Assembly (NCBI GenBank): GCA_030536655.1
Contig: JAUNPN010000003.1
Coordinates: 1 to 54,567 of the forward strand
Direction of reading: 5' to 3'
Origin: a bacterium
GTDB lineage: Bacteria; Bacillota; Clostridia; UBA1381
Length of the DNA: 54,567 nucleotides
Under the pieces are notes generated by a model. It was not told the DNA's origin, did not search any database, and was given only the letters and a program-made list of their open reading frames with translations. Position numbers and translations under genes: made by a program. This document shows, piece by piece, positions 16,017-53,122 of the stretch (position 1 is its first letter; each line of letters opens with the position of its first letter).

Positions 16017-16018
16017 TT

Positions 16019-23142: not shown

Positions 23143-23217
23143 AACATGGTAAATAAAAGCTTAAAAGCTTTTAATATAGCAAAAAATATTTTTTAATATA
23201 ATATAGGAGATGATAGT

Positions 23218-24429: not shown

Positions 24430-24454
24430 TAATAAATAGAGGAGGATTTGTACA

Positions 24455-25576
24455 ATGAATAAAGATACAATGGGTATTATTCTGACAAGCGGTGACAGAA
24501 TTCACCCGCTTACAGAAATCAGAGCAAACAGCGCATTGCCGATAGCAGGCAGATACAGAATTATCGACTTTGTTCTTTCCAACATGGTTAATGCCGGTAT
24601 CACAAACATCGGTGTGGCAACAGAGTCAAACTATTCATCACTCATGGACCACATAAAGTCAGGTAAGCCATGGGATCTTGACAGAAAAAAGGGCGGACTG
24701 AATATTCTTCCGCCGTCGCTTGAGCAGATGAATCTCGGCGTTATCAGAGGAAATATTGATATGCTTGCAGGTATTCGCGATTACATTCACAGAAGTCCGG
24801 AGAGCTATGTAATACTTAATCTCGGAAACAATATATACAATATGGATATGGCTGCCATAGTTGACGCTCATATTAAGAGCCAGGCTGATATTACAGCTGT
24901 ATACAAGGATTATGCCGGAATAAGCGAGGAAGCAGAGCTTACAAGATATACTCTCCTTGAAATTGACGAGGAAGGCAGAGTAAGAGATATTGAGGTTCAG
25001 CCGTATTATCCGAAAACAACGACAGCTTCGCTTGATATATATGTAATGGATAAGGTTCTTCTTGAGAGCATTATTGACGAATGCAGCGCAAGAGGCGACA
25101 AGGATCTTGTAAAGGACGCTCTTGTAAAGAAAATGGGCGGAATGAGAATTTTTGGCTATAAACATGAGGGTTACTGCTACAAGGTAGATTCAATGAAGGC
25201 TTATTATGCGGCTAACATGAATTTCCTGAACGGCGCTCTCCGCAAGGAGCTGTTCAATCCGGAGAGACCTATCTTTACAAAGACAAAGGATCAGACTCCG
25301 ACAAAGTACGGCGCTGAAGCAGAGGTATACAACTGCTTCGTTTCAGACGGATGCGTAATTGAGGGTACCGTTGAAAATTGTATTCTCTCGCGCGGTGTTA
25401 AGGTTGAAAAGGGCGCTATAGTAAGAAATTCAATAATTATGCAGGACAGTATTATCGAAGAGGGCGTAGAGCTTGACTGTGTAGTATTTGATAAGGAAGT
25501 ACACATCACAAAGGGCAGAAAGCTTATAGGTCAGGAGGCTGCTCCGCTGGCTATTGAAAAGGGTACCAAGATCTGA
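24455..25576 (+). CDS. glgD: GlgD, regulatory subunit of glucose-1-phosphate adenylyltransferase
   Basis: Paralogue of GlgC (373 aa) with the same fold but a degenerate active site. The GGxGxRL loop is replaced by LTSGDRIHPL, and the GDH of GlgC is GNN (LNLGNNIYNMD), so the catalytic Asp is missing. In Firmicutes such GlgD proteins raise activity or alter regulation of GlgC. The left-handed beta-helix C-terminus is intact. Preceded by GAGGAGG. A long perfect hairpin follows the gene. Confidence 0.94.
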   Translation: MNKDTMGIILTSGDRIHPLTEIRANSALPIAGRYRIIDFVLSNMVNAGITNIGVATESNYSSLMDHIKSGKPWDLDRKKGGLNILPPSLEQMNLGVIRGNIDMLAGIRDYIHRSPESYVILNLGNNIYNMDMAAIVDAHIKSQADITAVYKDYAGISEEAELTRYTLLEIDEEGRVRDIEVQPYYPKTTTASLDIYVMDKVLLESIIDECSARGDKDLVKDALVKKMGGMRIFGYKHEGYCYKVDSMKAYYAANMNFLNGALRKELFNPERPIFTKTKDQTPTKYGAEAEVYNCFVSDGCVIEGTVENCILSRGVKVEKGAIVRNSIIMQDSIIEEGVELDCVVFDKEVHITKGRKLIGQEAAPLAIEKGTKI

Positions 25577-25597
25577 TTTTGCATTGCAGGAGATCTG

Positions 25598-25635
25598 CAA
25601 ACAAAGGAAAGCGCTCCTGCGCTTTCCTTTGTTTG
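25598..25635 (+). terminator. Long perfect hairpin after glgD
   Basis: A 17-bp perfect stem (25598-25614 with 25619-25635) and a 4-base loop. No U-tract follows, so it may act in mRNA stability or as an imperfect terminator. It separates glgCD from the glgA promoter. Confidence 0.6.
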
Positions 25636-25752
25636 GAATATAAAAGAGCATAAAAAGGTCATAAAAATCGGTACAAATACGGATATAGTTCACTATCTGC
25701 AAAGATTTTTTTGCCTGATAATTGGTCAAAACAACTTTTTTTCGTGATTTGT

Positions 25753-25781
25753 TTGACAAAACATGAAAATTATAGTATAGT
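25753..25781 (+). promoter_or_regulatory. Promoter of glgA-glgP
   Basis: Perfect TTGACA (25753-25758) and TATAGT (25776-25781), spacer 17 bases. It makes glgA-glgP a separate transcription unit from glgCD. Confidence 0.8.
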
Positions 25782-25831
25782 ATTAGGGAGGAAAGGGCAT
25801 TAATATGCCTTATTCCGGGAAGGAGTTTGTT

Positions 25832-27700: not shown

Positions 27701-27723
27701 AAATAAAGGGGATGTAACGAGTA

Positions 27724-30249
27724 ATGGCAGAAACAAAGAAGACTACGGCAGTTAAGGCAACCGCGAAGGCTGCAAAGGCTGCAGCTCCGGCAGTAAAGCT
27801 TACGGCTGCAGAGGAAAAGCTTAAGCGCGAGATTATCGGCAAGGTAGGAAGACATTTCGGTAAGGTTATGGAAGAAGCTACACCTAACATGGTTTATGCT
27901 GCCTGTGCGCTTACTGTTCGTGATCAGATCATGGAGAAGTGGGCAAAGTCACATAAGCAGGTTAGGGAAGAAGGCTCAAAGAAGCTTTATTATCTTTCGT
28001 TTGAGTTCCTTATGGGAAGACTCTTATGCACAAATATCTTAAACCTTATGCAGACAGCAGAGTACGAGCACGTTCTTGCTGATTTGGGATATAAGCTTTC
28101 GGATATTGCTGAGATGGAAAATGACGCAGGACTTGGAAACGGCGGTCTCGGAAGACTTGCTGCCTGCTTTATTGATTCACTCACAACCTTGGACTTACCG
28201 GCATACGGCTGTACAATCCGCTATGAGTATGGTCTTTTCAGACAGAAGATTGTAGAGGGTTATCAGACAGAGCTTCCGGATATTTGGCTTGAACATGGTA
28301 ATGCGTGGGAAGTTGCAAGACCGGACGAGGCTGTAGAGGTTAAGTTCGGCGGAAATATCGAGAGCTACTGGGATAACGGCAAGATGGTATTCAATTATAA
28401 GGATGCGGAAACAGTTCTTGCTATGCCGTATGATATGCCGTTGGTTGGCTATGATTCAAAAATTATCAACAAGCTCAGACTTTGGGGAGCGTCAATTCCG
28501 ATGGAGATTACAAGCCGCAATTACTATGACAACGGAACCTTCAATAAGATGCTTCAGGCTAAGAGTCTTGCAGAGAAGATTTCCGGCGTGCTTTATCCGG
28601 ACGATACAACAGATGATGGTAAGATTTTGAGATTAAAGCAGCAGTACTTCCTTGTTTCTGCTACGTTACAGTGGATTTTAAAGGAATTTGAGGAGCAGAA
28701 CGGCAGCGACTGGACAAAGCTTCCGGAAAAGATTGTTATCCACATCAATGATACACATCCGACTCTTGCTATTCCGGAGATGATGCGTCTGTTAATGGAC
28801 GAAAAGGGTCTCGGATGGGAAGAAGCGTGGGAGGTTGTTACACACGTATTTGCATATACAAACCACACAGTAATGAGCGAGGCTCTTGAAAAGTGGAGAA
28901 TAGATATGTTCAGAAGCGTTGTTCCGAGAATTTATATGATTGTTGAGGAAATCAACAGAAGACTTATGGAACGGCTTGAGGTATTCTATCCGGGCGACAA
29001 GGGTAAGCATGATTGGATGGCTGTTATTGCTAACGGTCAGGTAAACATGGCTAACCTTTGTCTTGCAAGCTGCTTCGCGGTAAACGGCGTTTCACAGCTT
29101 CACACAGATATTCTTAAGAGAGATATCTTCAAGGATTACTATATGATGGATAAGGAGCGTTTCCACGCTATCACAAACGGTATTACCTTCAGAAGATGGA
29201 TTGCGAACTGTAATCCGGCTCTTACAGAGCTTATCAACGAAACAATCGGCGAGGGTTGGTTGAAGGATGCGGATAGGCTTCAGGAATTAAAGAAGTACGC
29301 GAAAGATAAGGATTTCCAGAAGAAGTTCTATGAAATTAAGCGTGCGAATAAGGTTGCTCTTGCAGAGTATATTAAGGAACATAACGGTGTTGAGGTAAAT
29401 CCGGATTCAATCTTTGATGTACAGTGTAAGAGACTCCACGAGTATAAGAGACAGATGATGAATGTACTTCACATTATTGCCGAGTACAACAGAATTTTAG
29501 AGGATCCGGCATATGCGGAGAATTATGTTCCTAAGACATATATCTTTGGTGCGAAGGCTGCTCCCGGCTATGTAAGGGCAAAGCTCATTATTAAGCTCAT
29601 CAACTCAGTGGGTGATATGATTAACAACGATAAGAGAATTAATGATAAGATAAAGGTTATCTTCATTGAAAACTACGGTGTATCTCTTGCAGAAAAGATT
29701 ATAACAGCCGCTGATGTATCAGAGCAGATTTCAACGGCAGGTAAGGAAGCATCAGGTACAGGAAACATGAAGTTCATGCTTAACGGTGCGCTTACAATCG
29801 GTACTCTTGACGGTGCGAACGTAGAGATGAAGGAGCAGGTAGGCGACGAGAATATCTATATCTTCGGTCTTGTCACCGAAGAAGTTGACGCTCGTCTTAA
29901 GTATGCGGGCAGCGATGAGGTTAAGAATATTTATTCATCGAACAGAGTATTGAGACGCGCGCTTGAGATGCTTATTGATGGTTCAATTATTCAGGGTAAT
30001 ACGCAGATATTCCAGGATCTTTACCAGACGCTTCTCTTCGGAGATTACGGTTATCCGGATACCTACATGGTAATTCGTGATTTCGAAGCATATATGCAGA
30101 CGCATGAGAAGATTTCAGAAGACTACAAGAACAGGGAAAAATGGCTTGAAATGGCTATCAATAACACAGCTATGTCCGGCTTCTTCTCAAGTGACCGTAC
30201 AATCAACGAATATAATGAGAAGATTTGGAAGCTCAAGGCTATTGACTAA
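27724..30249 (+). CDS. glgP: Glycogen/maltodextrin phosphorylase with Lys/Ala-rich N-terminal extension
   Basis: Releases glucose-1-phosphate from glycogen ends (GT35). The catalytic core of the 841-aa protein shows DAGLGNGGLGRLAACFIDS, the phosphate segment and the PLP lysine K683 in GTGNMKFMLNGALTIGTLDGANVEM. Before the core, residues 2-28 form a basic Ala/Lys stretch (ETKKTTAVKATAKAAKAAA...) unlike most bacterial phosphorylases but like the glgA tail just upstream. Whether GlgP acts mainly on glycogen or on maltodextrin cannot be told. It is probably co-transcribed with glgA. Confidence 0.95.
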   Translation: MAETKKTTAVKATAKAAKAAAPAVKLTAAEEKLKREIIGKVGRHFGKVMEEATPNMVYAACALTVRDQIMEKWAKSHKQVREEGSKKLYYLSFEFLMGRLLCTNILNLMQTAEYEHVLADLGYKLSDIAEMENDAGLGNGGLGRLAACFIDSLTTLDLPAYGCTIRYEYGLFRQKIVEGYQTELPDIWLEHGNAWEVARPDEAVEVKFGGNIESYWDNGKMVFNYKDAETVLAMPYDMPLVGYDSKIINKLRLWGASIPMEITSRNYYDNGTFNKMLQAKSLAEKISGVLYPDDTTDDGKILRLKQQYFLVSATLQWILKEFEEQNGSDWTKLPEKIVIHINDTHPTLAIPEMMRLLMDEKGLGWEEAWEVVTHVFAYTNHTVMSEALEKWRIDMFRSVVPRIYMIVEEINRRLMERLEVFYPGDKGKHDWMAVIANGQVNMANLCLASCFAVNGVSQLHTDILKRDIFKDYYMMDKERFHAITNGITFRRWIANCNPALTELINETIGEGWLKDADRLQELKKYAKDKDFQKKFYEIKRANKVALAEYIKEHNGVEVNPDSIFDVQCKRLHEYKRQMMNVLHIIAEYNRILEDPAYAENYVPKTYIFGAKAAPGYVRAKLIIKLINSVGDMINNDKRINDKIKVIFIENYGVSLAEKIITAADVSEQISTAGKEASGTGNMKFMLNGALTIGTLDGANVEMKEQVGDENIYIFGLVTEEVDARLKYAGSDEVKNIYSSNRVLRRALEMLIDGSIIQGNTQIFQDLYQTLLFGDYGYPDTYMVIRDFEAYMQTHEKISEDYKNREKWLEMAINNTAMSGFFSSDRTINEYNEKIWKLKAID

Positions 30250-30269
30250 TTTGAGCAGAATTTAAATGA

Positions 30270-30383
30270 AAACCTCTCCTCCCGAAGGGGTAAGGGCTAT
30301 GGGTGCATTCCGCGCGCATACAACCCTGCGCGCAGTCAGGATATTCGGTTATCGGCGGCGCGGCTCTTTGGGCGGAGGGTTTT
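30270..30383. repeat. Long imperfect inverted repeat between glgP and the GH13 gene
   Basis: Left arm 30270-30287 (AAACCTCTCCTCCCGAAG) pairs with right arm 30366-30383 (CTTTGGGCGGAGGGTTTT) with few mismatches, and T-rich sequence follows. The interior holds a GCGCGC...GCGCGC palindrome. It could end the glgAP transcript or be a small insertion; I found no second copy in the window. Confidence 0.5.
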
Positions 30384-30406
30384 TCGGGTTTTTTAGGGAG
30401 ATTTAA

Positions 30407-32344
30407 ATGAATATAGAACATAATTCGCGTGAGGAGTTTTATCGTTTCCCGTTCGGTGCTGTTACTTGCGGGACAGATGTGCGTTTAAGGCTTGCGGTTG
30501 AGGAGATTGGCATTCCTAATGCAGTGCGGCTTGTGTATATTGAGGACGGAAAATCTGAAAAAAGAATAGATATGCCGTATATTTTCAGTCTGTCTAAGCA
30601 TAGTATTTATTCAGTAAGCATTAAAATGCCGAAAACGGCCGGACTTATCTGGTACTATTTTGAGCTTGAAACCTCAAGCGGAACAGTGTATTACGGCAAT
30701 AATTCACATAATCTCGGCGGTATAGGAGAAACGCGTTATCACAAACCCTCCAATTCGTTCCAGATAACGGTGTATAATGATTATTACAGGACGCCGGATT
30801 GGTTTAAGGAAGGTATTGCATATCAAATTTTTCCGGATCGCTTCTTCAACGGAAATGAGGACGGCTCTTTTCTTGCGGAGCGTAATGACATAATAAAGCG
30901 TAACTGGGGAGATTTGCCGTTTTATAAGGCGGAACAGTTTGGCGGTGAATATAAGGCAAACGACTTCTACGGGGGAAACCTCAAGGGTATAATAAAGAAG
31001 CTTCCGTATCTTGCAGATCTGGGAATTTCGATTATTTATCTGAATCCGATATTTCGGGCATACTCAAATCATAAGTATGATACCGGCAGCTATGAGGAAA
31101 TAGACCCAATGTTCGGCGATGAGGAAACCTTCAAGGAGCTGTGCTCTGAGGCAAAGAAGCTTGGAATAAGGATTATTCTTGACGGAGTGTTTAATCATAC
31201 CGGTTCAAACAGTCGTTACTTCAATAAGAACGGAGAATATGACAGTGTGGGCGCGTATCAATCACAGGATTCTCCATATTACAGTTGGTACAGATTCATG
31301 GATTGGCCGGAGGTATATGAAAGCTGGTGGGGAATGCAAACACTTCCGCAGATAGAGGAACACAGCGACGAGCTGAGGGAATACCTGCTTTCAGGTCAGG
31401 ATGCTATTATAAAGAAGTGGATAAGAGCCGGCGCTTCCGGCTGGAGATTGGACGTTGTTGATGAGCTTCCGGATTTCTTTGTGCGTGAGCTGCGCGCGAA
31501 TGTTAAATCAGTTGATCAGGACGCGGTTATCATCGGCGAGGTTTGGGAGGACGCTTCAAATAAGATGGCATATGGCGAACGCCGCAAGTATTTCATGGGT
31601 GACGAGCTGGATTCAGTAATGAATTATCCGATGAGAAATGCTCTTATTGACGGTGCTCTTGGAAGAATTAATTCAAAGGAGCTTGATGCAAGGCTGATGA
31701 GCCTGAAGGAGAATTATCCGCATGAGGCATATTATTCGCTGCTGAATATGGTTTCCAGTCATGATGTTGAACGTATTATGACGCTTATGGGCGGAGTGCC
31801 GTCACGTCATGAGGTAGATCGTGAATATCAGGCGAATTTTAAGTTGGATGGATATGCGCTTACGGTTGCACAGGACAGAGCAACGCTTATTATAGGCTTG
31901 CTTATGACTCTGCCGGGAGTTCCATGTATTTTCTACGGAGATGAAGTGGGTATGCAGGGCTACGGTGATCCGTTCTGCCGGGCTTGTATGCCGTGGGGCG
32001 AGTTTGACAAAATTGACCCGGACGGCAGAGTAAGAACGAGATATAAGAACATGATTGCGCTGAGGAATTTGTCAAAGGCTTTTTCCTTGGGAGAGTTCGA
32101 GAGCGTGTATACTGAGGGCTTTGTTTACGGATTTGTGCGTTATTATGATGACGATATGTACGTTGTTATCGCAAACTGCGGAAGCATGAACGAATATATA
32201 AGGCTTGACGTTGCAAAATATAATATACGCGGTTTGAAATGCGTGACTGCCGAATCAGAAGAAATAAAATCAGAGGATGGTATTTTCAGAGTAAATATGC
32301 CGTCGTTATGGATTAAGGTATACAAGGCAACAGACTTTAAGTGA
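30407..32344 (+). CDS. GH13 alpha-glycosidase (neopullulanase/cyclomaltodextrinase-like)
   Basis: The 645-aa retaining alpha-glucanase has an N-terminal beta domain (about 1-130, CBM34-like) and a GH13 barrel: AYQIFPDRFFNG, region I DGVFNHTG, nucleophile D349 in GWRLDVVDEL, acid/base E378 in GEVWED, and D453 in SSHDVERI. The GWRLDVVDE form is typical of neopullulanase and maltogenic amylase-like enzymes, which act on maltodextrins and cyclodextrins. No signal peptide, so it acts on cytosolic glucans. Its position behind glgP suggests trimming of glycogen or imported maltodextrins. Exact linkage specificity is not readable. Confidence 0.9.
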   Translation: MNIEHNSREEFYRFPFGAVTCGTDVRLRLAVEEIGIPNAVRLVYIEDGKSEKRIDMPYIFSLSKHSIYSVSIKMPKTAGLIWYYFELETSSGTVYYGNNSHNLGGIGETRYHKPSNSFQITVYNDYYRTPDWFKEGIAYQIFPDRFFNGNEDGSFLAERNDIIKRNWGDLPFYKAEQFGGEYKANDFYGGNLKGIIKKLPYLADLGISIIYLNPIFRAYSNHKYDTGSYEEIDPMFGDEETFKELCSEAKKLGIRIILDGVFNHTGSNSRYFNKNGEYDSVGAYQSQDSPYYSWYRFMDWPEVYESWWGMQTLPQIEEHSDELREYLLSGQDAIIKKWIRAGASGWRLDVVDELPDFFVRELRANVKSVDQDAVIIGEVWEDASNKMAYGERRKYFMGDELDSVMNYPMRNALIDGALGRINSKELDARLMSLKENYPHEAYYSLLNMVSSHDVERIMTLMGGVPSRHEVDREYQANFKLDGYALTVAQDRATLIIGLLMTLPGVPCIFYGDEVGMQGYGDPFCRACMPWGEFDKIDPDGRVRTRYKNMIALRNLSKAFSLGEFESVYTEGFVYGFVRYYDDDMYVVIANCGSMNEYIRLDVAKYNIRGLKCVTAESEEIKSEDGIFRVNMPSLWIKVYKATDFK

Positions 32345-39057: not shown

Positions 39058-42000
39058 GTGAAAATCAATAAAATTCTGGCAGCTGCTATTTCAACTTCTG
39101 TGCTGATGCCCGTCATGCCTGTTACACAGGCTGCGGCGGTATCAAATAAGACAAATAACAGCTGGCAGCTGTTTGAGGCACAGAAGGACAGGCAGGATGA
39201 TATTTTCCAGTATCATTTTGCGGGCGGAACAGACGATTATATTAATGGTGCATCAACATCAGGAAAAAACTATGACAGCTACTTATGGGTTCCGAATAAT
39301 GTAGCTCCGGGTGAGCTTAAGGGACTGATTGCAATTAAAGCAAATCTTGTTGAGGTTCCGTTTGCGTATTCGGCAAAGCTGAAAAATGCACTTGCCGAAA
39401 AAGGATTCGGCATATTGTTTCTTGTATTCCAAAAGGACAGCTATAGGTATAATAATACTTTTAACAGCTTTAACACCCGTACAGATTATAAGGGTACAGC
39501 AACCGGAATAAGCGCTGATGATATGACCACTGACGGCAAGGACGCAGCGGATATTATGGATGATATTTTAACAGGTATCGCAGCATCGTCAGGCTATTCG
39601 GAAATTGCGGATACAACTCCTCTTATTACTATAGGCCACAGCGCCGCATCAGCGTTCGGCTACAGAAGCGGAAACTGGAATCCTGACAGAATAATTGCGC
39701 AGGTGCATATGAAGGATGGTATGTGGGGCGATGTAAATGACCATCATACTGTACCAGGAGTGCCGTCGTTGCAGTATGCTGCACAATATACTGAGCATGA
39801 TAAAAATAAGGGCCGCGACAGATCTGTTTGTGACGCACGTTATCATATTTCTCATCAGCGTGCAAAGAATACAGATATGCTTGTTTCACACATTATTGAA
39901 TGGGGCAGCGGACATTATGACTGGTCAGACAATGCAACCGATATGATGATAAAGTACATACAGAAGGCCATTGAATACCGTCTGCCTGATAATTACAATG
40001 AAACACATAAGCTTAACGATTTGACAAGCACCGGCTATCTCATGAAGCCGTTTGAAAAGGATGGCGGCAATGAACGGGCGGCCGGGTATTATCAATCACA
40101 AGGCGGCTGGCTGTCTGACGGCAAAGCAAACAGCGGCGCATCGGAAGCGGATAAAAAAGCATCGTTCTGGTTCTTTGATGAAGAATTTGCAAAGGAAGTA
40201 AACAGCTTTACCAGTTATGCAATTCCGCCGTCACCGGGCTCAAATGATACAAAGGTTGAGGGAGCGACCTACAGCTCAATAGAACCGTATATGCTGATGA
40301 AAAATCCATCGGTATCAACATATGCAAATACTCCGGCATCGGCAATTAATGAGATTGCACCAATGACTCCGTTTAATGCTGATATGTCGCGTTACGGCAA
40401 CACTCGTTTTGTCAATTACGATAAATTGGCAAATCCGAACGGAGATGCAGCAAATAGTGCTAATTTGCAAGGATATGATACCGTTACAGCAGATACATAT
40501 TATATGAAAAAAATACCGTCTGTAACAACAAACAACGGTACAACGTTAGCATATGACGGAGCGGGAGAATACGCATATGTTCCGATAGGTACAAAAGCAG
40601 AGCTTGTTCCGCTTATGGCACCGTATGAAATTGTAAAGTCGGAAATTGTGGATATGGATGGCATGATAAAGGCAGACGGCAATGCCGAGGCTGAAGATGT
40701 AGCATCGGTGACGCGTACTACATTACGTTTCCATAATAATCGTATATATTACAGTGCAGGATGTTCTGCAATAAATGAATATAATTCACAGCTGGACAGC
40801 TTTGCAATGATACTTTCGCCGGAGATTACAGAAAACGGAACAGTTACATCGGCTTTCAAATCGACTGGTGTTCAGATGAATGTTCCGTATGTGAACAAAG
40901 GAAAGAAACAGACGCTGACACTGAATCATATTCCAAATGTAAACATTAAGGATGATAATGCAGAAACAGCATTTGACATAAGCTATACATCATCAGATGA
41001 GGATTTGCAGAAGTATACAGATGTATTTGTTGAATACGGTCCGGCAAAGGCGGTAAGAACGGCAGCTGACGACGGGTCATATAAGTGGAGAATAGAAATT
41101 CTTTCTGATGAAATTCCGAAAAATGCTGCTTATCCGATAGAGGTAAACGTGGTTGCATCTAATCTTGGAAAGTGGGAAACCACAAGCGGTGCAACCGCGT
41201 CACAGAAGTTTTATATCACCGACAGAGATATCAAGAGCGGTGTAGAACTTGACGGAGCAGCGAAAGATAACTATGATTCTGCCGTAAATTTGGCAAGATC
41301 AGATGATGCAGAGCATGTTATAACGATATATTCTGATAGTCAAACATCACAGAGAAGCAATATGGACAGTTCAGAAAATATAAGCTTTATAAATGGTGAT
41401 TTTGCTGCGGAAGTAAAGCAGACATCAAATAATATGATGTTCTTAAGCACAGGTAATTCAACTAATCCAACGCTTACATTCGGTAAACCGGAGCTTGCTG
41501 CAACAAATAAGGATACAGCGCTTACATTCAATGTGAACGGTAAAAACCGTTTTGCTGAAATTAATAAGGGTTCTGTTAACCTTTATAACGGCGCGGTTAT
41601 AACCGGCGGTAATGCAGCTCGAGGCGGTGGAATTGACTGTAAAACAGGTAGTGTATTGAATATGTACGGCGGTATTATAAGCGGCAATACTGCGACGACA
41701 GCGGCAAATTCGGACTTGGGCGGCGGCGGTGTTTCCATCGTCGGGTCAGGAGTCATGAATATGACAGGCGGCGTTATTACAGGAAACATATCTACAACCG
41801 CAAAGGGCGGCGGTGTGAGCATAATGGAGAACGGCTCAACGCTGAATATGAGCGGAGGTTCAATTATCGGAAACAGCGGATATGACGTATATATGAGCGG
41901 TAAAAATGTAACGCTTAACATGAGCGGCAGCGCAAAAATCGGAAGTCTGTTTTTTTCCGAGGGAAAGAGGGTTACGGTAAACGGCGCATTTACATCGAGC

Positions 42001-43026
42001 GGATCTCATGCGGAAATTACTCCGGCAAGATACGAGGAGGGTACGGAGGTTGTAAGCTATGCTGACGGTATATCTCCGTCCGTGTCGGATTTTACAGTAG
42101 CTGCCGACGGCGAAACTGTATGGTATACATATGCGGACGGTCAGAGTCTTAAGCTAACGACAACCGCGCCGTTTACAATAACATCCTCAAATGTAAGTGT
42201 TCAGAACTCAGCGTCAAAGGGTGAAACTGTAACAGTTGCCGTTCCGGATAATTATGTTGAAAATTCACTTGTAGTATCGGGACTGAATCCGGACGAATTA
42301 AAAAAGGTGTCGGATAATTGCTACAGCTTCACAATGCCCGGTAAGTCGGTAAATGTTTCGTGCCTTGTGAACGACAACCCGAAAAAAGTTATAGTTGTTG
42401 GAACTCATGATACATACTATGTAAGAAATGATAATTCTATGCAGGTAAGCTTTGATGTACCTGATGCGGGAAACGCTTATGTATATTCGGAGGCGGCAGT
42501 CAATATTCCTGTACGCGCATATTACGGAGGCGAGGTGGCTGCTGAAATGAACGGTGTGTCATATGCTGTGAACGGCGGAAATATAAGCGGCAGCAGCATT
42601 ATAGCAGCCGGTATAAATATTATGAGGGTTACCAATTCAAATGAGAATGGAACGGATTATTACAGCTATGTCGGGGGTTGGAACGGTTCAAGATATGATT
42701 ATCCCGTAACTGCCGAAAATCTGTCCACTCTGACGCTTACGAAGTCAGTATCGGCGAAAGCGAAAGAATTCGGAGAAGCAGAGGGAGCGGCAGATGCAGA
42801 TATAAACAGCAATGCAAAGGGGTATTTTGTTGATAACCTTGCAATTCCGTCATGGAATCCGACATTACACTGGCAGATTACCTTAAACAGCGGTGCTGTA
42901 GCAAAGAAAGAGATAAATCTGCCTGAATTAAGCGGCAAGGGCAGCATTTCAATAGGTATTGTTGTGTACGGCACAAACGGAAATGCAGACACATCTGATA
43001 TTAAAGATATAATGATTGTGGAATGA
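39058..43026 (+). CDS. Large secreted protein: alpha/beta-hydrolase-like domain plus beta-helix repeats
   Basis: A 1322-aa exported protein starting at GTG (39058) behind CGGAGGA, with a signal peptide ending near TQAAA. Residues about 30-320 look like an alpha/beta-hydrolase: nucleophile elbow G-H-S-A-A with S195, and H286 in SGHYDWS as a possible catalytic His, as in carbohydrate esterases or depolymerases. Residues about 841-965 are Gly/Asn-rich repeats (LNMSGGSIIGN, MNMTGGVITGN) of parallel beta-helix type. The remaining C-terminus is beta-rich and unrecognised. No SLH, dockerin or sortase signal is seen. A carbohydrate or polyester esterase is the best guess; the substrate is unknown. 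Confidence 0.7.
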   Translation: MKINKILAAAISTSVLMPVMPVTQAAAVSNKTNNSWQLFEAQKDRQDDIFQYHFAGGTDDYINGASTSGKNYDSYLWVPNNVAPGELKGLIAIKANLVEVPFAYSAKLKNALAEKGFGILFLVFQKDSYRYNNTFNSFNTRTDYKGTATGISADDMTTDGKDAADIMDDILTGIAASSGYSEIADTTPLITIGHSAASAFGYRSGNWNPDRIIAQVHMKDGMWGDVNDHHTVPGVPSLQYAAQYTEHDKNKGRDRSVCDARYHISHQRAKNTDMLVSHIIEWGSGHYDWSDNATDMMIKYIQKAIEYRLPDNYNETHKLNDLTSTGYLMKPFEKDGGNERAAGYYQSQGGWLSDGKANSGASEADKKASFWFFDEEFAKEVNSFTSYAIPPSPGSNDTKVEGATYSSIEPYMLMKNPSVSTYANTPASAINEIAPMTPFNADMSRYGNTRFVNYDKLANPNGDAANSANLQGYDTVTADTYYMKKIPSVTTNNGTTLAYDGAGEYAYVPIGTKAELVPLMAPYEIVKSEIVDMDGMIKADGNAEAEDVASVTRTTLRFHNNRIYYSAGCSAINEYNSQLDSFAMILSPEITENGTVTSAFKSTGVQMNVPYVNKGKKQTLTLNHIPNVNIKDDNAETAFDISYTSSDEDLQKYTDVFVEYGPAKAVRTAADDGSYKWRIEILSDEIPKNAAYPIEVNVVASNLGKWETTSGATASQKFYITDRDIKSGVELDGAAKDNYDSAVNLARSDDAEHVITIYSDSQTSQRSNMDSSENISFINGDFAAEVKQTSNNMMFLSTGNSTNPTLTFGKPELAATNKDTALTFNVNGKNRFAEINKGSVNLYNGAVITGGNAARGGGIDCKTGSVLNMYGGIISGNTATTAANSDLGGGGVSIVGSGVMNMTGGVITGNISTTAKGGGVSIMENGSTLNMSGGSIIGNSGYDVYMSGKNVTLNMSGSAKIGSLFFSEGKRVTVNGAFTSSGSHAEITPARYEEGTEVVSYADGISPSVSDFTVAADGETVWYTYADGQSLKLTTTAPFTITSSNVSVQNSASKGETVTVAVPDNYVENSLVVSGLNPDELKKVSDNCYSFTMPGKSVNVSCLVNDNPKKVIVVGTHDTYYVRNDNSMQVSFDVPDAGNAYVYSEAAVNIPVRAYYGGEVAAEMNGVSYAVNGGNISGSSIIAAGINIMRVTNSNENGTDYYSYVGGWNGSRYDYPVTAENLSTLTLTKSVSAKAKEFGEAEGAADADINSNAKGYFVDNLAIPSWNPTLHWQITLNSGAVAKKEINLPELSGKGSISIGIVVYGTNGNADTSDIKDIMIVE

Positions 43027-44315: not shown

Positions 44316-47300
44316 ATGAAAAGATTACTCGCATTGACAACAGCGGCGGCACTGGCTGTATCGGGAATGGCAATTCCTGCTTATGCCGCTGATTACGGTA
44401 TCGCGTCGATAGGTACAGACGGTTCCGTTACGCTTAATTTCGGAGCGGACTCAATCACGCAGAAGGGCGGCGGAAGCATTATTGATGATATTGTAAATAA
44501 TGTAAAGCGTCCGGATAATCTCAAAACAGATGACAGTAACACCGCAGTTTTGACGCTGCCGGAAATTGATCTGAACGGAACGGGCTATACAAAGGTTGAT
44601 TTGTATGCGGCAAGTAAAAATGATGCGGCTGTTACAATTAAGGTAGGTGATACGGAGGTAGCCTCCTATGCCAATGTAAACAGCGGTGCATGGGACAGCT
44701 ATGCAATATCAACGGCAAACCTTACAACTGCGGAAGCGAGCGGAAACGTTACATTGAACATAACAGGCACAGGCGCAAAAGCATATTGCGGAAATTATGT
44801 TTATGTCAGGTTCTATGGTGACGGAAACGTTGTTCCGCCGGCGGTACCGACAGTTCAGCCGACAGAAAAGCCGGAGGGACTTCTCCCGTATCAGGACGAA
44901 AGTCTTTCATTCGAGGAAAGAGCGGCAGACCTTGTTTCAAGAATGACGCTTGAAGAAAAGGTCGCGCAGCTCGGCTACACAGCTCCGGCAATACCGAGGC
45001 TCGGAGTTGCAAACTATAACTACTGGAAAGAGTGTCTGCACGGAGTTGCAAGACAGGGTAAGGCTACTAACTTCCCGGCACCGCTTGCACTTTCCAATAC
45101 ATGGAACAGAGAACTTGTTCATTCGGTTGCGGATATAACCTCGACCGAGGCAAGAGGAAAGAACAACAAGACAAATCTTTCGTATTACACTCCGACAATT
45201 AACATGGCGCGTGACCCGCGCTGGGGACGTAATGAGGAAACCTACGGCGAGGATCCGTACTTAACAGGTCAGCTCGGCGGAGAGTTTGTAAAGGGTATGC
45301 AGGGCGATGATGAAAAATATGTAAAGATCATTGCAACAATCAAGCACTTTGCGGCAAACAACAACGAAGCAAACCGCCGCGGCGGCTCGTCAATCATGAA
45401 TGAGTACAATTTCAGAAATTACTACTTAAAGGTATTCCGGAATGTAGCTGAAATTGAAATGCCCGGTTCGGTTATGTCGTCGTATAACGCGACGTCAATA
45501 TACCGTGACGGAAATCTGCTCTTTAACTATAAGCCGTCGGCGGCAAATACATATCTTCTGACAGATATTTTAAGACGTACATGGGGTTTTGACGGATATG
45601 TTACAACAGACTGCGGCGCGGGTGAGGACTTAATCAAGAATACTTCATATATGAACGGTGTTCTCGGAACCACCTCGGAAAAGAGCGGCGCGTACATTGC
45701 GGCGGCTCTGCTTGCGGGAATGGATTTGGAATGTAATCTCGGCGGGGGCAATGCCTCAGTTACAAACGGCGCCGAGGCTGTTCTTGAGGGTTATATAACA
45801 GAGCAGCAGCTTGAAACGAATATTTACCATTTATTCTTACAGCGCTTCAGAACAGGAGAATTTGACAGCAATCCGTCATACAGAGATATTACAAGCAATG
45901 TAATTGAAACAGACGAGAACGTTGCTGTTGCGGAGCAGGCAGCTGAGGAAAGCTGGGTTCTGTTAAAGAATGACAGTGATATTCTTCCGATAAAGGATAA
46001 GAAAAACATCGCAGTAGTCGGAAACATGGCAAATCTGCTTGTTCTCGGTGACTATACTGGTACGCCGGAAAAGACCGTAAAGCCGATTACGGGTATCAGA
46101 GAAGCCTTTGAGGCTGATGGCGCTGAGGTGAGCTATCTTGGTGAAATAACAGATGATGAGAAGCTCTTTAACCTTAAGAGCATGACCTTCATTATGAAGG
46201 ATGGTTCAAGAAAGACGATTGACCTTACAAAGGCTGAAAAGGTTTCCGGAATGACGGCTGCAAACGGCGGATTTACGGATATAACTCCTGCTGCGACAGC
46301 TGTAATCAAGAATGTGAACTTCTTAAATGTTGCGTCTGTTGAGGCAGAGCTTTCAACAGGTTCAAGAGTGGGCGGTTCAATAAATATTGCCTATGGACAG
46401 GGCGGTCCTACCGTTGCGTCTGTAAGCACGTCTCCGACAGCCGAGCTTGACAGCTATACAGCGTGCACAGGAGAATTTACAGGTGAGGACGGCGGCTATA
46501 ACGGCACAGCGGATATGTACATTTCAGCAAGCGCAAGAGCTGTTGAGTTCTCGGTTGAAGCATATAAGCAGCAGCTCGATGCGGCGGATGTAATTATTGC
46601 ATATGCAGGAACGATTCCGAAGCAGGATGGTATGGGCGATGCTGATTCATCAGAGTCGAAGGACAGAAAGAATATTGACCTTCCTGCACATCAGTCGCAT
46701 GTTCAGACAATATGTGATGCATATCCGGAAAAGACGGTTGTTGTTATGTCAACAGTCGGTCAGATTAATGTAGAGCCGTTCATGAATAAGTGTAAAGCAA
46801 TTCTCTGGACCTCATACAACGGTCAGACACAGGGTACTGCACTCGGAAAGGTTCTCACAGGAGATGTTAATCCGTCAGGACGCCTTACCACAACATGGTA
46901 TAAGAATGCGGACGTTCAGAAGCTTGAGCTTTCGAATACAGAACAGCAGAAGATCGGCAGCATAACCGGCAAATATACAAACTATGATATTCAGCCGACA
47001 GACACTAAGCCGGGCAATACATATCAGTATTATAACAATACACCGGTTTACCCGTTCGGCTATGGCTTAAGCTATACAAGCTTTGAATATTCAAATATGA
47101 CCATAGACAAGACGGAGGCGGACGCTAACGGAAAGGTAACGATGACTGTTGACGTAAAGAATACAGGAAACACCGGCGGCAAGGAGGTTGTTCAGCTTTA
47201 CGTTTCACATCCTCAGAGTAACAGCATGACACCTAAGAAGCAGCTTAAGGGCTTTGAAAAGGTTGAGCTGGCAGCGGGCGAAACAAAGACGGTTTCGTTT

Positions 47301-50099
47301 GCTCTTGATGTTTCCGATATGGAGCTTTACAGCGAAAAGCTTGTAAAGAACGAGGTTCCCTCAGGAACATATACAGCTTATATCGGAAAGAATGCTGATG
47401 ATGTGTCGCTGTCAAAGACATTTAACGTAACAGGCACACTGGATGCATCATTAAAGACTGTAAAGGCAATGCCGGACGGCATATCCCTTTCGGCATATAT
47501 TTCGGAGGACGGCTCAAAGCTTTCGCCGATTTATAAGATTAAAGCAAACCTTTCAGCAGTTATGAATGATGAAAGTGTTTATGACATTGCAAAGGCGCAA
47601 GTAAGCTATGCAAGCTCGAACGAGGCTGTGGCAACGGTTGATGAGGAAGGCACTGTAACCTCAGGAACAGTTGAGGGTACTGCTGTAATTACAGCAACAG
47701 TAACGATTAACGGAGTGACAAAGACAGACAGTTTCCCGGTAGTAAACGTGCTTACGGTTGCGAATGACGATATTCCATATGTAATTAGCAAGGTAACAAA
47801 TCAGAAGGACGGAAATGTCGATGTAACACTTTCGTACAGAGGCAGTGTTGCGGCTACAGATGTGACATTAAAGGCAGAGGTTCTTAACGCTGACGGAAGC
47901 GTTAAGTCAACGGCAAAATCAACCGTAAAGGGCGCAGACAAGTTCTCGGTTGCGACAGGCGCTGCTGACGGTGAAAAGGTAAGGTATACGGTAGAAAATT
48001 CGGACGGAAAGGCTCTTTCGGAAAGTTATGAATTTGTATATAACGTTCCGATTCCGAGTAAGATTGTGACATATTATCTTGAAAGTCCGGATTATGATTA
48101 CTCGCAGCTTACCGGCGGTACGGACGGAATTAAGTATGATAAAACGGTAAACGGACTATCAGGCTACGGCAGCTGGAAGCTTGACACAAAGTCAAAGGGC
48201 TCGTACACATATGTGGATACGAATGACAATGAATACAGCTATGATTTCACAAAATCGTGGTCAGCCGGCTCAGGCGGCAAGGAAAAGCGCAGCTTGTATT
48301 TCACTCCGCTGGGTGAGGGTAAGGTAACGGCGGTATTCTACGGAAGCGAGTCAATTAGAAGCATGACAATCCAGCAGGGCAGCAGGTCGGCAGTTCAGGA
48401 GGGAACCGGCGCAGTTGCGGAGGTAAGCCTTGATATAACCAATACGGCAGAGCCGGTTTATATTTACGGCGGCAGCAGCACAAAGTATCTGTATGCGATT
48501 ATCGTTGAGTATTACGGCATGGGCGGTACAGTTGACCCAAGTGCATCACCGTCAGAAACATCATCACCGGAACCGACGTCAAAACCAAAGCCGTCAGGAA
48601 CGACATATACATATACAGTTCCGGAAGCAGGTATTGCAATGGCGGCAGGAACAGCGCTTATTGATAATGACGCGGTAAAGGTATATATAACAAATGATAT
48701 AACAACAAATATAAATGACCAAAGCGCTTTTGATCAAGCAACATATTCGGCGAATATTCCGTTCCGAGGAAACGGCATTGTAAAGGCTCATCTTGATGAC
48801 CTTTCAGGCAATAACAGAGAGGGTGCGGCAAACGTTGCGGTTATACCGAAGAATGACGGAGAATTTACCGCAGCAATCGGAATTAACGCGGAAAAGACGA
48901 TGCGCGTATGGGATAATACCGACAACAAGGAGATTCAGACTGTAACATCGGTACAAAAGGGTGTATCGCAGATAAGCGCAGAAATGAAGGCAGGACACGA
49001 GTACCTCGTATATGCGGCAGGAACAACAGCCTGCATATTAAAGGCAGAGTATCTTGCATATGACAAATCGGATGTTACGTCATCACCGGATGCAACATCA
49101 CAGCCGACGTCATCACCGGATGCAACATCACAGCCGACACCATCGACTGATGTAACAACATCGCCGGATACAACGGAGCAGCCATCGGATAAGGTTACAG
49201 TAACATATGATGCGGCGGCTCAGGTAATCAATATAGACGCGGGTTCACAGAATATTGACAATGCGGCGGTAATCATTGCGTCATATGAGGACGGCAGAGT
49301 TGCCTCGGTAAAGACATATACAGCGGAGGCTGTAATTGGTAATATTGCTCTTAATGACGGTGACAGGGTTATGGTCTGGGATTCGTTAAACGGTATGACG
49401 CCGATTTCGGATGTATTTGTATACGCGGCTCAGGGTGAGCTGATGGATATACAGGCTGTAAGCTGGAACGGAGATAATGACATACTTCTCACAAAGGATA
49501 CGGTTTCGGGTGAAACAAAGATTATGCAGAAGCTCATCGGAAATCAGATGGCAGAGCTTTCGTTAGACAGCTTTTACAGTGCTGACGAGTCATACAGCTA
49601 CGGCGATAAGCTGACTGTAAATGCTCTGGCAGTGTATAAGGACAGACTGTATGCGGCTTGTGACGATGGTTATGTAGTCATGCTCACAAACTGTATCAAG
49701 TGCTATCAGTTAAAGAAACCGGTAGATTTTGACATAAAGTCGATGGAAATTGTTGACGGGAAAATGACAGTATACGATGAAGACGGAAACAGCACCGTAA
49801 TTGATATGAGCGAGCTTGGCGGCGACTCAATAGAGGCGGATGAGGCAAACGCTCTTATATCGAACGGCGCGGTTCTGATTGATGTAAGAAGTGCGGAGGA
49901 GTTCGCTGAGAAGTCTGTGGATGGCTCTGTCAACATTCCGGCAGATGAGATAGAAGAAGGAATTGCGGCTTATGATACCGATGCAGTGTTGATTTTCTGC
50001 TGCGCATCGGGAGCAAGAGCACAGGTCGCTCTTGAAAAAGCAAAGGAGCTTGGTTATACAAACGTATATACACTCGGAAGCATTGATAAGCTGATATGA
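44316..50099 (+). CDS. Secreted multidomain GH3 beta-xylosidase/beta-glucosidase-like enzyme with C-terminal rhodanese domain
   Basis: A 1927-aa exported enzyme. Order: signal peptide (1-25); small beta domain (about 26-170); GH3 N-terminal barrel from about 188 (RMTLEEKVAQLG, YWKECLHGVARQGKATNFPAPLALS, KHFAANNNEANR) with probable nucleophile Asp near 432 in TDCGAG; GH3 C-domain from about 545, interrupted by a CBM-like insert (about 620-745); Fn3-like domain (about 915-1040); BIG2-like domain (about 1095-1145); two beta domains (about 1250-1400 and 1430-1585) joined by Ser/Thr/Pro linkers; a beta-rich segment (1640-1838); and a rhodanese fold (about 1839-1927) with C1896 in FCCASGARA. TDCGA and the ECLHG motif point to xylan or arabinoxylan fragments. 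The rhodanese is unexpected. Regulated probably by the divergent AraC gene. Confidence 0.9.
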   Translation: MKRLLALTTAAALAVSGMAIPAYAADYGIASIGTDGSVTLNFGADSITQKGGGSIIDDIVNNVKRPDNLKTDDSNTAVLTLPEIDLNGTGYTKVDLYAASKNDAAVTIKVGDTEVASYANVNSGAWDSYAISTANLTTAEASGNVTLNITGTGAKAYCGNYVYVRFYGDGNVVPPAVPTVQPTEKPEGLLPYQDESLSFEERAADLVSRMTLEEKVAQLGYTAPAIPRLGVANYNYWKECLHGVARQGKATNFPAPLALSNTWNRELVHSVADITSTEARGKNNKTNLSYYTPTINMARDPRWGRNEETYGEDPYLTGQLGGEFVKGMQGDDEKYVKIIATIKHFAANNNEANRRGGSSIMNEYNFRNYYLKVFRNVAEIEMPGSVMSSYNATSIYRDGNLLFNYKPSAANTYLLTDILRRTWGFDGYVTTDCGAGEDLIKNTSYMNGVLGTTSEKSGAYIAAALLAGMDLECNLGGGNASVTNGAEAVLEGYITEQQLETNIYHLFLQRFRTGEFDSNPSYRDITSNVIETDENVAVAEQAAEESWVLLKNDSDILPIKDKKNIAVVGNMANLLVLGDYTGTPEKTVKPITGIREAFEADGAEVSYLGEITDDEKLFNLKSMTFIMKDGSRKTIDLTKAEKVSGMTAANGGFTDITPAATAVIKNVNFLNVASVEAELSTGSRVGGSINIAYGQGGPTVASVSTSPTAELDSYTACTGEFTGEDGGYNGTADMYISASARAVEFSVEAYKQQLDAADVIIAYAGTIPKQDGMGDADSSESKDRKNIDLPAHQSHVQTICDAYPEKTVVVMSTVGQINVEPFMNKCKAILWTSYNGQTQGTALGKVLTGDVNPSGRLTTTWYKNADVQKLELSNTEQQKIGSITGKYTNYDIQPTDTKPGNTYQYYNNTPVYPFGYGLSYTSFEYSNMTIDKTEADANGKVTMTVDVKNTGNTGGKEVVQLYVSHPQSNSMTPKKQLKGFEKVELAAGETKTVSFALDVSDMELYSEKLVKNEVPSGTYTAYIGKNADDVSLSKTFNVTGTLDASLKTVKAMPDGISLSAYISEDGSKLSPIYKIKANLSAVMNDESVYDIAKAQVSYASSNEAVATVDEEGTVTSGTVEGTAVITATVTINGVTKTDSFPVVNVLTVANDDIPYVISKVTNQKDGNVDVTLSYRGSVAATDVTLKAEVLNADGSVKSTAKSTVKGADKFSVATGAADGEKVRYTVENSDGKALSESYEFVYNVPIPSKIVTYYLESPDYDYSQLTGGTDGIKYDKTVNGLSGYGSWKLDTKSKGSYTYVDTNDNEYSYDFTKSWSAGSGGKEKRSLYFTPLGEGKVTAVFYGSESIRSMTIQQGSRSAVQEGTGAVAEVSLDITNTAEPVYIYGGSSTKYLYAIIVEYYGMGGTVDPSASPSETSSPEPTSKPKPSGTTYTYTVPEAGIAMAAGTALIDNDAVKVYITNDITTNINDQSAFDQATYSANIPFRGNGIVKAHLDDLSGNNREGAANVAVIPKNDGEFTAAIGINAEKTMRVWDNTDNKEIQTVTSVQKGVSQISAEMKAGHEYLVYAAGTTACILKAEYLAYDKSDVTSSPDATSQPTSSPDATSQPTPSTDVTTSPDTTEQPSDKVTVTYDAAAQVINIDAGSQNIDNAAVIIASYEDGRVASVKTYTAEAVIGNIALNDGDRVMVWDSLNGMTPISDVFVYAAQGELMDIQAVSWNGDNDILLTKDTVSGETKIMQKLIGNQMAELSLDSFYSADESYSYGDKLTVNALAVYKDRLYAACDDGYVVMLTNCIKCYQLKKPVDFDIKSMEIVDGKMTVYDEDGNSTVIDMSELGGDSIEADEANALISNGAVLIDVRSAEEFAEKSVDGSVNIPADEIEEGIAAYDTDAVLIFCCASGARAQVALEKAKELGYTNVYTLGSIDKLI
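49080..49138 (+). repeat. Tandem 30-bp repeat inside the GH3 linker
   Basis: Two near-exact copies of a 30-base unit encoding SSPDATSQPT, then a diverged third (STDVTTSPDT). It is a typical expandable Ser/Thr/Pro linker between secreted domains. Confidence 0.85.
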
Positions 50100-50351: not shown

Positions 50352-51347
50352 ATGCCGAATAAATCGGGACAAAAAATAAAGCTTTTGTATTTAAAGGACA
50401 TATTTGAGCAGAAAACAGATGAGGATCATCCGCTGAGTATAAATCAGATTATTGATGAGCTTGGGAAATACGGTGTGGATGCGGAGCGTAAAAGCCTATA
50501 CCGAGATATAGAAACCTTGCAGGAGTATGGAATGGACATCTGCTCCCGCAGAGAAAAGCACTTTGTTTATTACCTCGGCAAACGTGATTTTGAGGAGGTG
50601 GAATTGAAGCTGCTTGCCGACGCTGTTTCAGCGTCAAAGTTCATTCCGAACCGATATACCATGCAGATAATCAAAAAGCTCGGCAGACTTACAAGCGAGT
50701 ATGGCGCTGCAAAGCTTGACCGTCAGCTGTATACTGAAAAATCCACTAATGATGAAATGAGCGTTATTTACTATAACATAGATTCAATTTACCGTGCAAT
50801 TGACGGCAACTGGCAGATTCAGTTCAGATATTTTGACTATACTATGAAAAAAGCTCGTGAGCTTCGCCATGACGGAGCGTTTTATCTAATCAGTCCGTGG
50901 GCGCTTGTATGGAATGACGGAATGTATTATCTTGTGGGATATGAAAGCAAAGATAAGCAGATAAAGCATTATCGGGTTGATAAGATGCTGAAGACCACGA
51001 TTAATGAAAAGCTTCCGCGAGATGGTCAGCAGGCTTTTCTGGATTTTGATATAGATAAGTATAAGCGCAGAGTGTTCGGAATGTACAACGGAGAAACACG
51101 TGACATAAAAATGCATTGTCACAAGTCGCTTGCAAATCTTATTATTGACCGTTTTGGCAGAAAGGATATAATTATGTATCCTGTGGATGAGGAGCATTTT
51201 GACGTTCATGTAAAGGTTGCTGTAAGTCCGGTGTTCATTTCATGGGCAATGGGACTGGGTGATAAGCTTTTGGTAGTTTCACCGGAAAGCGTCAGGGAGG
51301 AAATACGTAAAATGTCACACAGGCTTATAGAGGTATATGCAGAATGA
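50352..51347 (+). CDS. WYL-domain transcriptional regulator
   Basis: A 331-aa protein with an N-terminal helix-turn-helix (about 10-70: LSINQIIDELGKYGVDAERKSLYRDIETLQEYG) and a WYL sensor domain (about 120-210: IQFRYFDY ... YLISPWALVWNDGMYYLVGYESK), followed by the WCX-type C-terminus. WYL proteins bind nucleotides or nucleic acids and often regulate stress or defence genes. ATG at 50352 behind AAGGGGGAA. It overlaps the next gene by 4 bases (ATGA), so it probably regulates its own operon. Confidence 0.92.
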   Translation: MPNKSGQKIKLLYLKDIFEQKTDEDHPLSINQIIDELGKYGVDAERKSLYRDIETLQEYGMDICSRREKHFVYYLGKRDFEEVELKLLADAVSASKFIPNRYTMQIIKKLGRLTSEYGAAKLDRQLYTEKSTNDEMSVIYYNIDSIYRAIDGNWQIQFRYFDYTMKKARELRHDGAFYLISPWALVWNDGMYYLVGYESKDKQIKHYRVDKMLKTTINEKLPRDGQQAFLDFDIDKYKRRVFGMYNGETRDIKMHCHKSLANLIIDRFGRKDIIMYPVDEEHFDVHVKVAVSPVFISWAMGLGDKLLVVSPESVREEIRKMSHRLIEVYAE

Positions 51348-53122
51348 GAACAGATATAGGAAAAATAGAAATAAAACGTGAGAACATACTGCGCGCGCTG
51401 CACTGCGGTGAGGACAGTCCCGTGTATGAGCGGATAAGCGGCGAGGTTGATAAAGTGATTAGCGAGGCGGCGCCGGAAGCAAGGGTGTATATCAGTCATG
51501 AGGATAAGCTTATTTATGTGCTTGTAACAGTCGGAAATGAAATAAGCAGATATTCGCGCGAGCTTATGGAGCGCGGAGAATGTATAGGAGGACTTGCCGC
51601 CGATACGGTCGGAGATGAAGTGCTGTTCAGCGCGGACAATCGTGTATCGGATTATCTTAAGGAATATCTTGCGGAGAAAAATCTCGGAGTTTTAAAGCGT
51701 ATGCAGGCGCCGGAGGATTTTCCGCTAAGCCGTCACGCGGAGATAATTGAAAAAACAGGAGCGGAGGACGTAGGTCTGACAGAGGCGTATATGTTTGATC
51801 CGCCGAAAACAATGGCGTATATTCTGGAGCTTACCGAGGACAGCAGAGTTTTCAAAGCACAGCATGATTGTTCGAAATGTCCGAATTTAAATTGTCCGCG
51901 CCGGTCGGTAAAAGCAGAAAAAATGGAAGCTCTGACGGAGCATGGAGAGGTCAGCTGCATCATGGTAAGAGATGTGATGTGCATTGATATAGGCACTACA
52001 ACGCTTGCGTTTGAGCGTATCCGAAACGGCAGACGAAGCACTGTTACGGCAGTAAACAGTCAAAGGCAATTTGGCGCGGACGTTATTTCAAGGCTTGAGG
52101 CCTCGAATGCCGGAAGGGGCAGAGAGCTTAAACAGAAAATCTGCTATCAGCTGATTGAAGGTGTGCGTAATCTGTACAGAGGAGGAGAGCAGCCGGAGAA
52201 AATAATAGTTTCAGCCAATACGACAATGGTTCATCTTCTTATGGGGTATTCTTGCCAAACGCTTGGAAGTTATCCGTTTGAGCCGTATAATAAGGAAATA
52301 ATTGAAACGGATTTCAAAACCCTGACCGGGAGCGGAATATGCAATGCGCCGGTTACGATAATCGGCGCGGTCAGCGGATTTGTAGGCGGCGATATAGTCA
52401 GCGGAATGTATATGTGCGATTTTGACATTTCCGAAAGGATCAATCTGTTCGTAGATTTGGGTACTAACGGAGAAATGTCAATAGGCAATGCGGAAGGAAT
52501 ACTCGTCACGTCAACCGCAGCTGGACCGGCGTTTGAGGGCGGAAGAATCTCGTGCGGAACAGGCTCGGTTGACGGAGCAGTGTATGCCGCAGATTTTGCG
52601 GAGCATAAAATAAGTACGATAAACGACAAGCCTCCTGTAGGAATATGCGGCACCGGAATAGTTGAAGTTATGGCGGAGCTTATTAAAAGCGGAGCCGTTG
52701 ATAAAACGGGGCTGCTAAGGGATGAATATTTTGAAACGGGCTATCCGGTGACGGAAAGGCTGCGGTTTACGCAGAAGGATATAAGGGAAATTCAAACGGC
52801 AAAGGCGGCTGTGCGCGCGGGAATAGAGCTGCTTATTGAACGTTACGGATGCACGTATGAGGATGTTGCAAGCGTGTATATTGCGGGAGGCTTTGGCTGC
52901 AAACTGAATATTTCGAAAGCGTGTGAGATTGGACTTATACCGCCGGAGCTTGAAATGAAATGCACTGCGATAGGAAACAGCAGTCTGGGCGGTGCGGTAA
53001 AATATGCTTTCAGTATGGACGCGGCTGCGAGAACCGGTAAGTTAAGGGGTCTGTGCCGTGAGCTTGTGCTTGCAGCGGATGAGGACTTTAATGACAGATA
53101 TTTGGAATATATGAATTTTTGA
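51344..53122 (+). CDS. DUF4445/ASKHA ATPase with N-terminal MetH-activation-like domain (corrinoid protein reactivator-like)
   Basis: The 592-aa protein has an N-terminal region (about 1-170) resembling the activation domain of B12-dependent methionine synthase, a cysteine cluster C176-x2-C179-x4-C184 (HDCSKCPNLNCPRRS), and an ASKHA ATPase domain from about 210 (CIDIGTTTLAF, FVDLGTNGEMSIG, GICGTGIVEVMAEL, VYIAGGFGCKLN). Related RamA/RACE proteins use ATP to reduce inactive Co(II) corrinoid proteins. The usual N-terminal 2Fe-2S ferredoxin is absent; the Cys cluster may bind iron-sulfur instead. No methyltransferase is adjacent, so the client is unknown. Coupled with the WYL regulator. Confidence 0.82.
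   Translation: MRTDIGKIEIKRENILRALHCGEDSPVYERISGEVDKVISEAAPEARVYISHEDKLIYVLVTVGNEISRYSRELMERGECIGGLAADTVGDEVLFSADNRVSDYLKEYLAEKNLGVLKRMQAPEDFPLSRHAEIIEKTGAEDVGLTEAYMFDPPKTMAYILELTEDSRVFKAQHDCSKCPNLNCPRRSVKAEKMEALTEHGEVSCIMVRDVMCIDIGTTTLAFERIRNGRRSTVTAVNSQRQFGADVISRLEASNAGRGRELKQKICYQLIEGVRNLYRGGEQPEKIIVSANTTMVHLLMGYSCQTLGSYPFEPYNKEIIETDFKTLTGSGICNAPVTIIGAVSGFVGGDIVSGMYMCDFDISERINLFVDLGTNGEMSIGNAEGILVTSTAAGPAFEGGRISCGTGSVDGAVYAADFAEHKISTINDKPPVGICGTGIVEVMAELIKSGAVDKTGLLRDEYFETGYPVTERLRFTQKDIREIQTAKAAVRAGIELLIERYGCTYEDVASVYIAGGFGCKLNISKACEIGLIPPELEMKCTAIGNSSLGGAVKYAFSMDAAARTGKLRGLCRELVLAADEDFNDRYLEYMNF

Follow-up and report, generated by a model that had tools for sequence, protein, structure and literature searches.

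Two groups of described proteins come closest to the protein analyzed here. The single-domain rhodaneses (PF00581), including PspE, GlpE and YgaP of Escherichia coli, share with it the fold signature, the DVR motif and the C-x2-G-x-R loop, and PspE is described in one account as an exported single-domain rhodanese (PMC2593051). In contrast to these proteins, the rhodanese studied here ends a large glycoside hydrolase and always stands behind a cysteine-bearing blade-like domain, which we refer to as the Cys-blade. It scored 32 bits with the PspE equivalog model of NCBIfam, for which the cut-off is 102, and also remained below the GlpE cut-off. The second group, the GH3 beta-xylosidases (NF041776, Xyl3A; PDB 7vc7 and 5a7m), has in common with our protein the N- and C-terminal GH3 domains, the Fn3-like domain, the active-site Asp-Cys and a second cysteine, whereas our protein possesses extra C-terminal domains and the rhodanese-containing module. 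For fungal GH3 beta-xylosidases, a disulfide oriented towards the xylose ring at subsite -1 has been described (PMC8913315). No description of GH3-rhodanese, GH27-rhodanese, SLH-rhodanese or propeller-rhodanese proteins was found in the open-licence PMC literature.

The DNA under study, hereafter the window, is a stretch of 54,567 nucleotides (contig JAUNPN010000003.1) from a bacterium of the class Clostridia. The gene of the GH3-module protein comprises the following features:

44316..50099, plus strand: whole gene, 1,927 aa (single open frame and Pfam)
44316..44390, plus strand: signal peptide, MKRLLALTTAAALAVSGMAIPAYA (read by eye, typical n-h-c pattern)
45030..45827, plus strand: GH3 N-terminal catalytic domain, PF00933 (Pfam E 3.4e-36), with the nucleophile Asp432, Cys433 and Cys473
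45957..47075, plus strand: GH3 C-terminal domain, PF01915 (Pfam E 3.3e-45)
47184..47393, plus strand: Fn3-like domain, PF14310 (Pfam E 3.9e-23)
49440..49826, plus strand: Cys-blade domain, residues 1709-1837 (alignment A1, profile searches, hhalign probability 97.9%)
49827..50096, plus strand: rhodanese domain, residues 1838-1927 (PF00581, alignment A2), with the catalytic loop C1896-ASGA-R1901

Signal peptides, here and in the relatives, were judged by eye. The original prediction of a rhodanese at the C-terminus of an exported GH3 enzyme was borne out by Pfam (PF00581 at residues 1841-1920, E 2.7e-12, 47.4 bits against a gathering score of 22.2), by the unbroken frame and by the motifs LIDVRSAEEFAEK, FCC(1896)ASGAR(1901) and LGYTNVYTLGSI, all of which are found in the protein. 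The catalytic cysteine had been correctly numbered as C1896. It is followed by Arg1901 in the six-residue loop, and the presence of both residues supports the earlier view that the domain may be active. With regard to its extent, the interval initially given, 49830-50099, does cover the rhodanese, but the start of the conserved unit lies some 390 bases further upstream, at 49440. The Cys-blade upstream, the unfused propeller-rhodanese relatives and the GH27 enzymes of the clade that end in a rhodanese had not been recognized at the time.

The protein also contains a weak Big_2 match and Ser/Thr/Pro-rich linkers. GC and GC3 are unchanged across the junction to the C-terminal module, and a terminator scan 3' of the stop codon gave nothing above chance. 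A single-sequence fold had a mean pLDDT of 46, which corresponds to low confidence. Elsewhere in the window, an exported 1,322-aa protein is encoded upstream of the GH3 gene (39058-43026); its N-terminal end, inspected by eye, carries motifs of esterase type, and no Pfam match exceeded the cut-off. A RACo-like corrinoid-protein activator (51344-53122; PF14574, PF17651) lies two genes downstream, past a WYL regulator. A glycogen synthesis and breakdown cluster (21034-32344) comprises a branching enzyme, two GlgC-like proteins, a starch synthase, a phosphorylase and an amylase, and a DNA methylase adjoins a TdeIII-type restriction endonuclease at 15201-16798.

The conserved C-terminal module spans about 220 residues and consists of the blade-like domain followed by the rhodanese; in the GH3-fused copies, a blade of about 125 residues always precedes the rhodanese. 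The blade motif, C-x10-C-x2-C, corresponds to Cys1782, Cys1793 and Cys1796 and is invariant in alignment A1, whose invariant positions are Y73, C76, G79, C87, K89 and C90 (Y..C..G..C.K.C). In the ten rhodanese sequences of alignment A2, twelve positions are invariant, including the Asp and Arg of the DVR motif and the Cys, Gly and Arg of the loop. The module has four conserved cysteines, and most copies are exported.

Approximately 30 GH3 proteins from two families of Clostridia, the family of the source genome and Monoglobaceae, were found to share this module at their C-terminus. Searching the last 284 residues against 101 relatives revealed GH3 proteins with a matching end in several genomes. 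The A1 profile, which covers the domain preceding the rhodanese, had hits in 10 of the 70 genomes from the same family and in 16 of 391 genomes sampled from the class. A single family, f19, accounts for nine of these 16 genomes, and almost all of the nine encode three GH3 paralogues. Loci of one member, the 2.76-Mb single-contig genome G240, which carries the fused GH3, match Monoglobus pectinilyticus records with 92-98% DNA identity, and the family is therefore very probably Monoglobaceae. The fused M. pectinilyticus proteins are named in RefSeq only as "glycoside hydrolase family 3 C-terminal domain-containing protein". Two of the M. pectinilyticus records (NZ_OY725741.1 and NZ_OY725729.1) are titled "plasmid" and are probably chromosome pieces, as they carry genes such as those of leu/ilv biosynthesis. 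Between two strains, the GH3a protein is only 74% identical, while the flanks are 92-96% identical in DNA.

The fused copies form three paralogue sets, a, b and c. Paralogue c GH3s (loci L041, L099, L111 and L112) have no signal peptide, yet keep both the Cys-blade and the rhodanese, and the compartment of the module is therefore not constant. Module-less GH3 paralogues also occur, in the source genome (G000:C238) and in genomes G043 and G046, and a scan of genome contigs with the module returned generic rhodaneses only. The GH3 tree separates the GH3s that adjoin unfused modules from a single group comprising the fused GH3s together with a few module-less proteins (support 80/64). As the module-less proteins of G000:C238 and G043 nest in paralogue clade b, the tree suggests that they lost the module after one fusion. 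The paralogue b module of genome G033 (G033:C114, L042) falls inside the Monoglobaceae clade, together with that of G196 (100/100), which suggests horizontal transfer or a binning error.

The catalytic cysteine was present in every intact rhodanese inspected in a larger set of copies, so its loss across homologues, which would have spoken against the original prediction, did not occur. The search for GH3 proteins ending in a rhodanese that had been proposed thus showed that the architecture recurs with this residue kept. The C-x2-G-x-R loop is conserved in all GH3-fused copies but two, in which the arginine is replaced by Lys (G240c) or Trp (G283c). One further GH3, G340c, stops after the blade, and no rhodanese remnant was found downstream. 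The dN/dS ratios (Nei-Gojobori) between Monoglobus-group orthologues of paralogues a, b and c were 0.18-0.19 in the rhodanese, 0.10-0.18 in the Cys-blade and higher, at 0.24-0.30, in the upstream domains. By these low ratios, the module is kept by purifying selection acting on both of its parts.

The A1 profile also matched unfused proteins of 445-531 aa in G114, G247 and G300 (two), which have an N-terminal membrane or lipoprotein anchor, Ycf48-like repeats and a rhodanese end. We refer to them as propeller-rhodanese proteins; the term propeller was assigned by inspecting the repeats, for which Pfam has no model. Their last repeat bears the Cys motif of the module and is followed by the rhodanese. 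Profile-profile comparison of the Cys-blade with this last repeat gave a probability of 97.9% (hhalign), and the module of the window matched the propeller-rhodanese profile at positions 212-380 of 383 (E 1.2e-37). Two more such proteins, in G509 and G655, came from further searches; G655 is listed under another class of the same phylum. The Cys-bearing last repeat, the rhodanese behind it and the linkage to GH3 are thus common to this group and the window protein. The propeller-rhodanese proteins differ in having a full set of repeats, a membrane or lipid anchor and a gene of their own; the window protein has the C-x10-C-x2-C repeat and the rhodanese but neither the N-terminal repeats nor the anchor, its N-terminus being that of a GH3. 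No library name was found for the group. Two families without GH3 gave weak matches far below cut-off: NF045521 ("rhoda_near_glyco") to the rhodanese part, and NF045728 ("F510_1955 family glycosylhydrolase") to the repeats of the unfused proteins. In G114, a single in-frame TGA separates the propeller from the rhodanese (L094, around 3734).

In all seven unfused loci (G109, G114, G247, two in G300, G509 and G655), which represent six families and were picked by profile score rather than by neighborhood, a GH3 gene follows immediately downstream, on the same strand in the case of the propeller-rhodanese genes. Each genome has 4-5 GH3 genes among some 2,500 genes, a total derived from genome size, and we estimate that such adjacency would arise by chance in roughly 0.2% of cases per locus. 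The neighboring GH3s, which were checked with Pfam, look exported. The neighbors also include AraC-type response regulators and, at several loci, genes of xylose-type ABC transporters, namely a XylF-like binding protein (G114), a XylG-like ATPase with a sugar permease (G509) and a GguB-like permease (G655). The G109 protein is a 319-aa exported stand-alone module encoded 13 bp upstream of the GH3 gene. Since the module tree groups it with the fused modules against the propellers (100/100), it may be a secondary split.

Because unfused copies adjoin GH3 genes in 7/7 loci, we conclude with high confidence that the module is a dedicated partner of GH3 enzymes, fused to them in the family of the source genome and in Monoglobaceae. 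The linkage, fused or adjacent, is well supported. The module would derive from an exported or membrane-anchored propeller-rhodanese protein, or share a common ancestor with one, and has been joined to the GH3 chain in these two families.

Rhodanese tails on glycosidases are recurrent in this clade, whatever their role. GH27-rhodanese proteins of about 490 aa with an intact loop occur in approximately 20 of 70 genomes of the same family, and the only other rhodanese of the source genome belongs to such a protein, a GH27 alpha-galactosidase with an intact C-terminal rhodanese (G000:C103, L001:1492-2952, minus strand). As in the GH3-module protein, a glycoside hydrolase ends in an intact rhodanese loop; in contrast, these enzymes are of another GH family and have neither a signal peptide nor a Cys-blade. 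The rhodanese is absent from GH27s of 380-400 aa. A cysteine adjacent to the GH27 nucleophile was considered as a mark of the rhodanese-linked enzymes and rejected, as it is also present in GH27s without rhodanese. In addition, proteins combining a surface-layer (SLH) anchor with a rhodanese were found in G057 and G033 (L050:2197-3090 and L047:3304-4101). The G033 reading frame overlaps the end of a GH27 reading frame and may represent a frameshifted GH27-SLH-rhodanese.

The GH3 part of the window protein is closest to beta-xylosidases, although its score with the Xyl3A model NF041776, 513 bits, is well below the equivalog cut-off of 1250. Asp432 aligns with the Asp of the TTDC/SSDC motif of fungal GH3 beta-xylosidases. 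Cys433, which adjoins this nucleophile, and Cys473 align with cysteines of the fungal enzymes and are invariant in all 29 GH3 sequences whose alignment extends to these positions; the disulfide at subsite -1 would be formed by the equivalent cysteines. The combination of a C-x10-C-x2-C blade with a rhodanese would lend itself to thiol or persulfide chemistry, for which the Cys433/Cys473 pair would be the obvious candidate target. We tentatively propose that the module performs such chemistry for the GH3, with Cys1896 and the blade cysteines acting as a relay that might set or protect the state of this pair. Several findings count against this proposal. The module-less GH3s of G000:C238, G043 and G046 have the identical pair and must therefore function without a module in cis; for the same reason the pair was rejected as a mark of module-bearing GH3s and is only a possible target. 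Furthermore, G340c has no rhodanese, two copies have no loop arginine, and the compartment varies, as a signal peptide is missing from the c paralogues.

The main rival is a structural role, in which the rhodanese fold serves binding or oligomerization, the blade is a metal- or disulfide-stabilized spacer, catalysis is incidental and the GH3 is held to the surface or to another enzyme. In favor of this role, the unfused proteins that adjoin GH3 have a lipoprotein or membrane anchor, the blade is kept in copies that have lost the arginine or the whole rhodanese, and the same family encodes SLH-rhodanese proteins. The catalytic cysteine in every intact rhodanese and the C-x2-G-x-R loop in nearly all GH3-fused copies speak against it, as does paralogue c, which retains the module without a signal peptide; we regard this role as possible but rather unlikely. 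Among the roles originally put forward, that of a partner gains support because unfused copies adjoin GH3 genes, whereas pure anchoring and extracellular sensing are weakened because the signal-peptide-less paralogue keeps the whole module. Extracellular sensing of sulfide or redox state, tuning GH3 activity or release, would be in line with the four conserved cysteines, with the export of most copies and with the arrangement in G247 and at one G300 locus, where the unfused copy has a response regulator gene on one side and the GH3 gene on the other. However, the module has no signal-transducing domain and such response regulators are common in sugar loci, which makes sensing improbable.

Rhodanese is classically a thiosulfate:cyanide sulfurtransferase, and beta-glucosidases occur among GH3 enzymes. 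The GH3 could hence free cyanide from plant cyanogenic glycosides for conversion to thiocyanate by the fused rhodanese, and rhodanese has reportedly been linked with the breakdown of such glycosides in the gut. Nevertheless, the GH3 is nearest to beta-xylosidases, several unfused loci adjoin xylose-type transporter genes, and fusions to an alpha-galactosidase (GH27) do not fit, so that cyanide detoxification is highly improbable; both it and sensing are less likely than the structural role. The 266-contig assembly of the source genome and the GH3 paralogues without a module might raise the suspicion that the tail is an artefact of assembly or annotation, or a domain carried along neutrally. 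Such an explanation is barely credible given the purifying selection and the recurrence in many genomes. Neither a frameshift nor an assembly join, either of which would have undermined the original prediction, was found, since the architecture recurs in single-contig G240, in RefSeq records of M. pectinilyticus and in other independent genomes, and an artefact was rejected on these grounds.

Returning to thiol or persulfide chemistry, the module could, more speculatively, represent an undescribed accessory class (Cys-blade plus rhodanese) specific to extracellular GH3 glycosidases, which would act in trans or as a tail and chemically control active-site cysteines. If true, this would be a post-translational system for thiol maintenance or switching in polysaccharide-degrading enzymes. 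Rhodaneses are not known as partners of glycoside hydrolases in the open-licence PMC literature, and a selected module that is fused to GH3 or adjoins it points to an unrecognized connection of sulfur or redox chemistry with the breakdown of plant fiber by Clostridia. Given that M. pectinilyticus, a cultured human gut species, carries the module, this idea is directly testable in a cultured organism.
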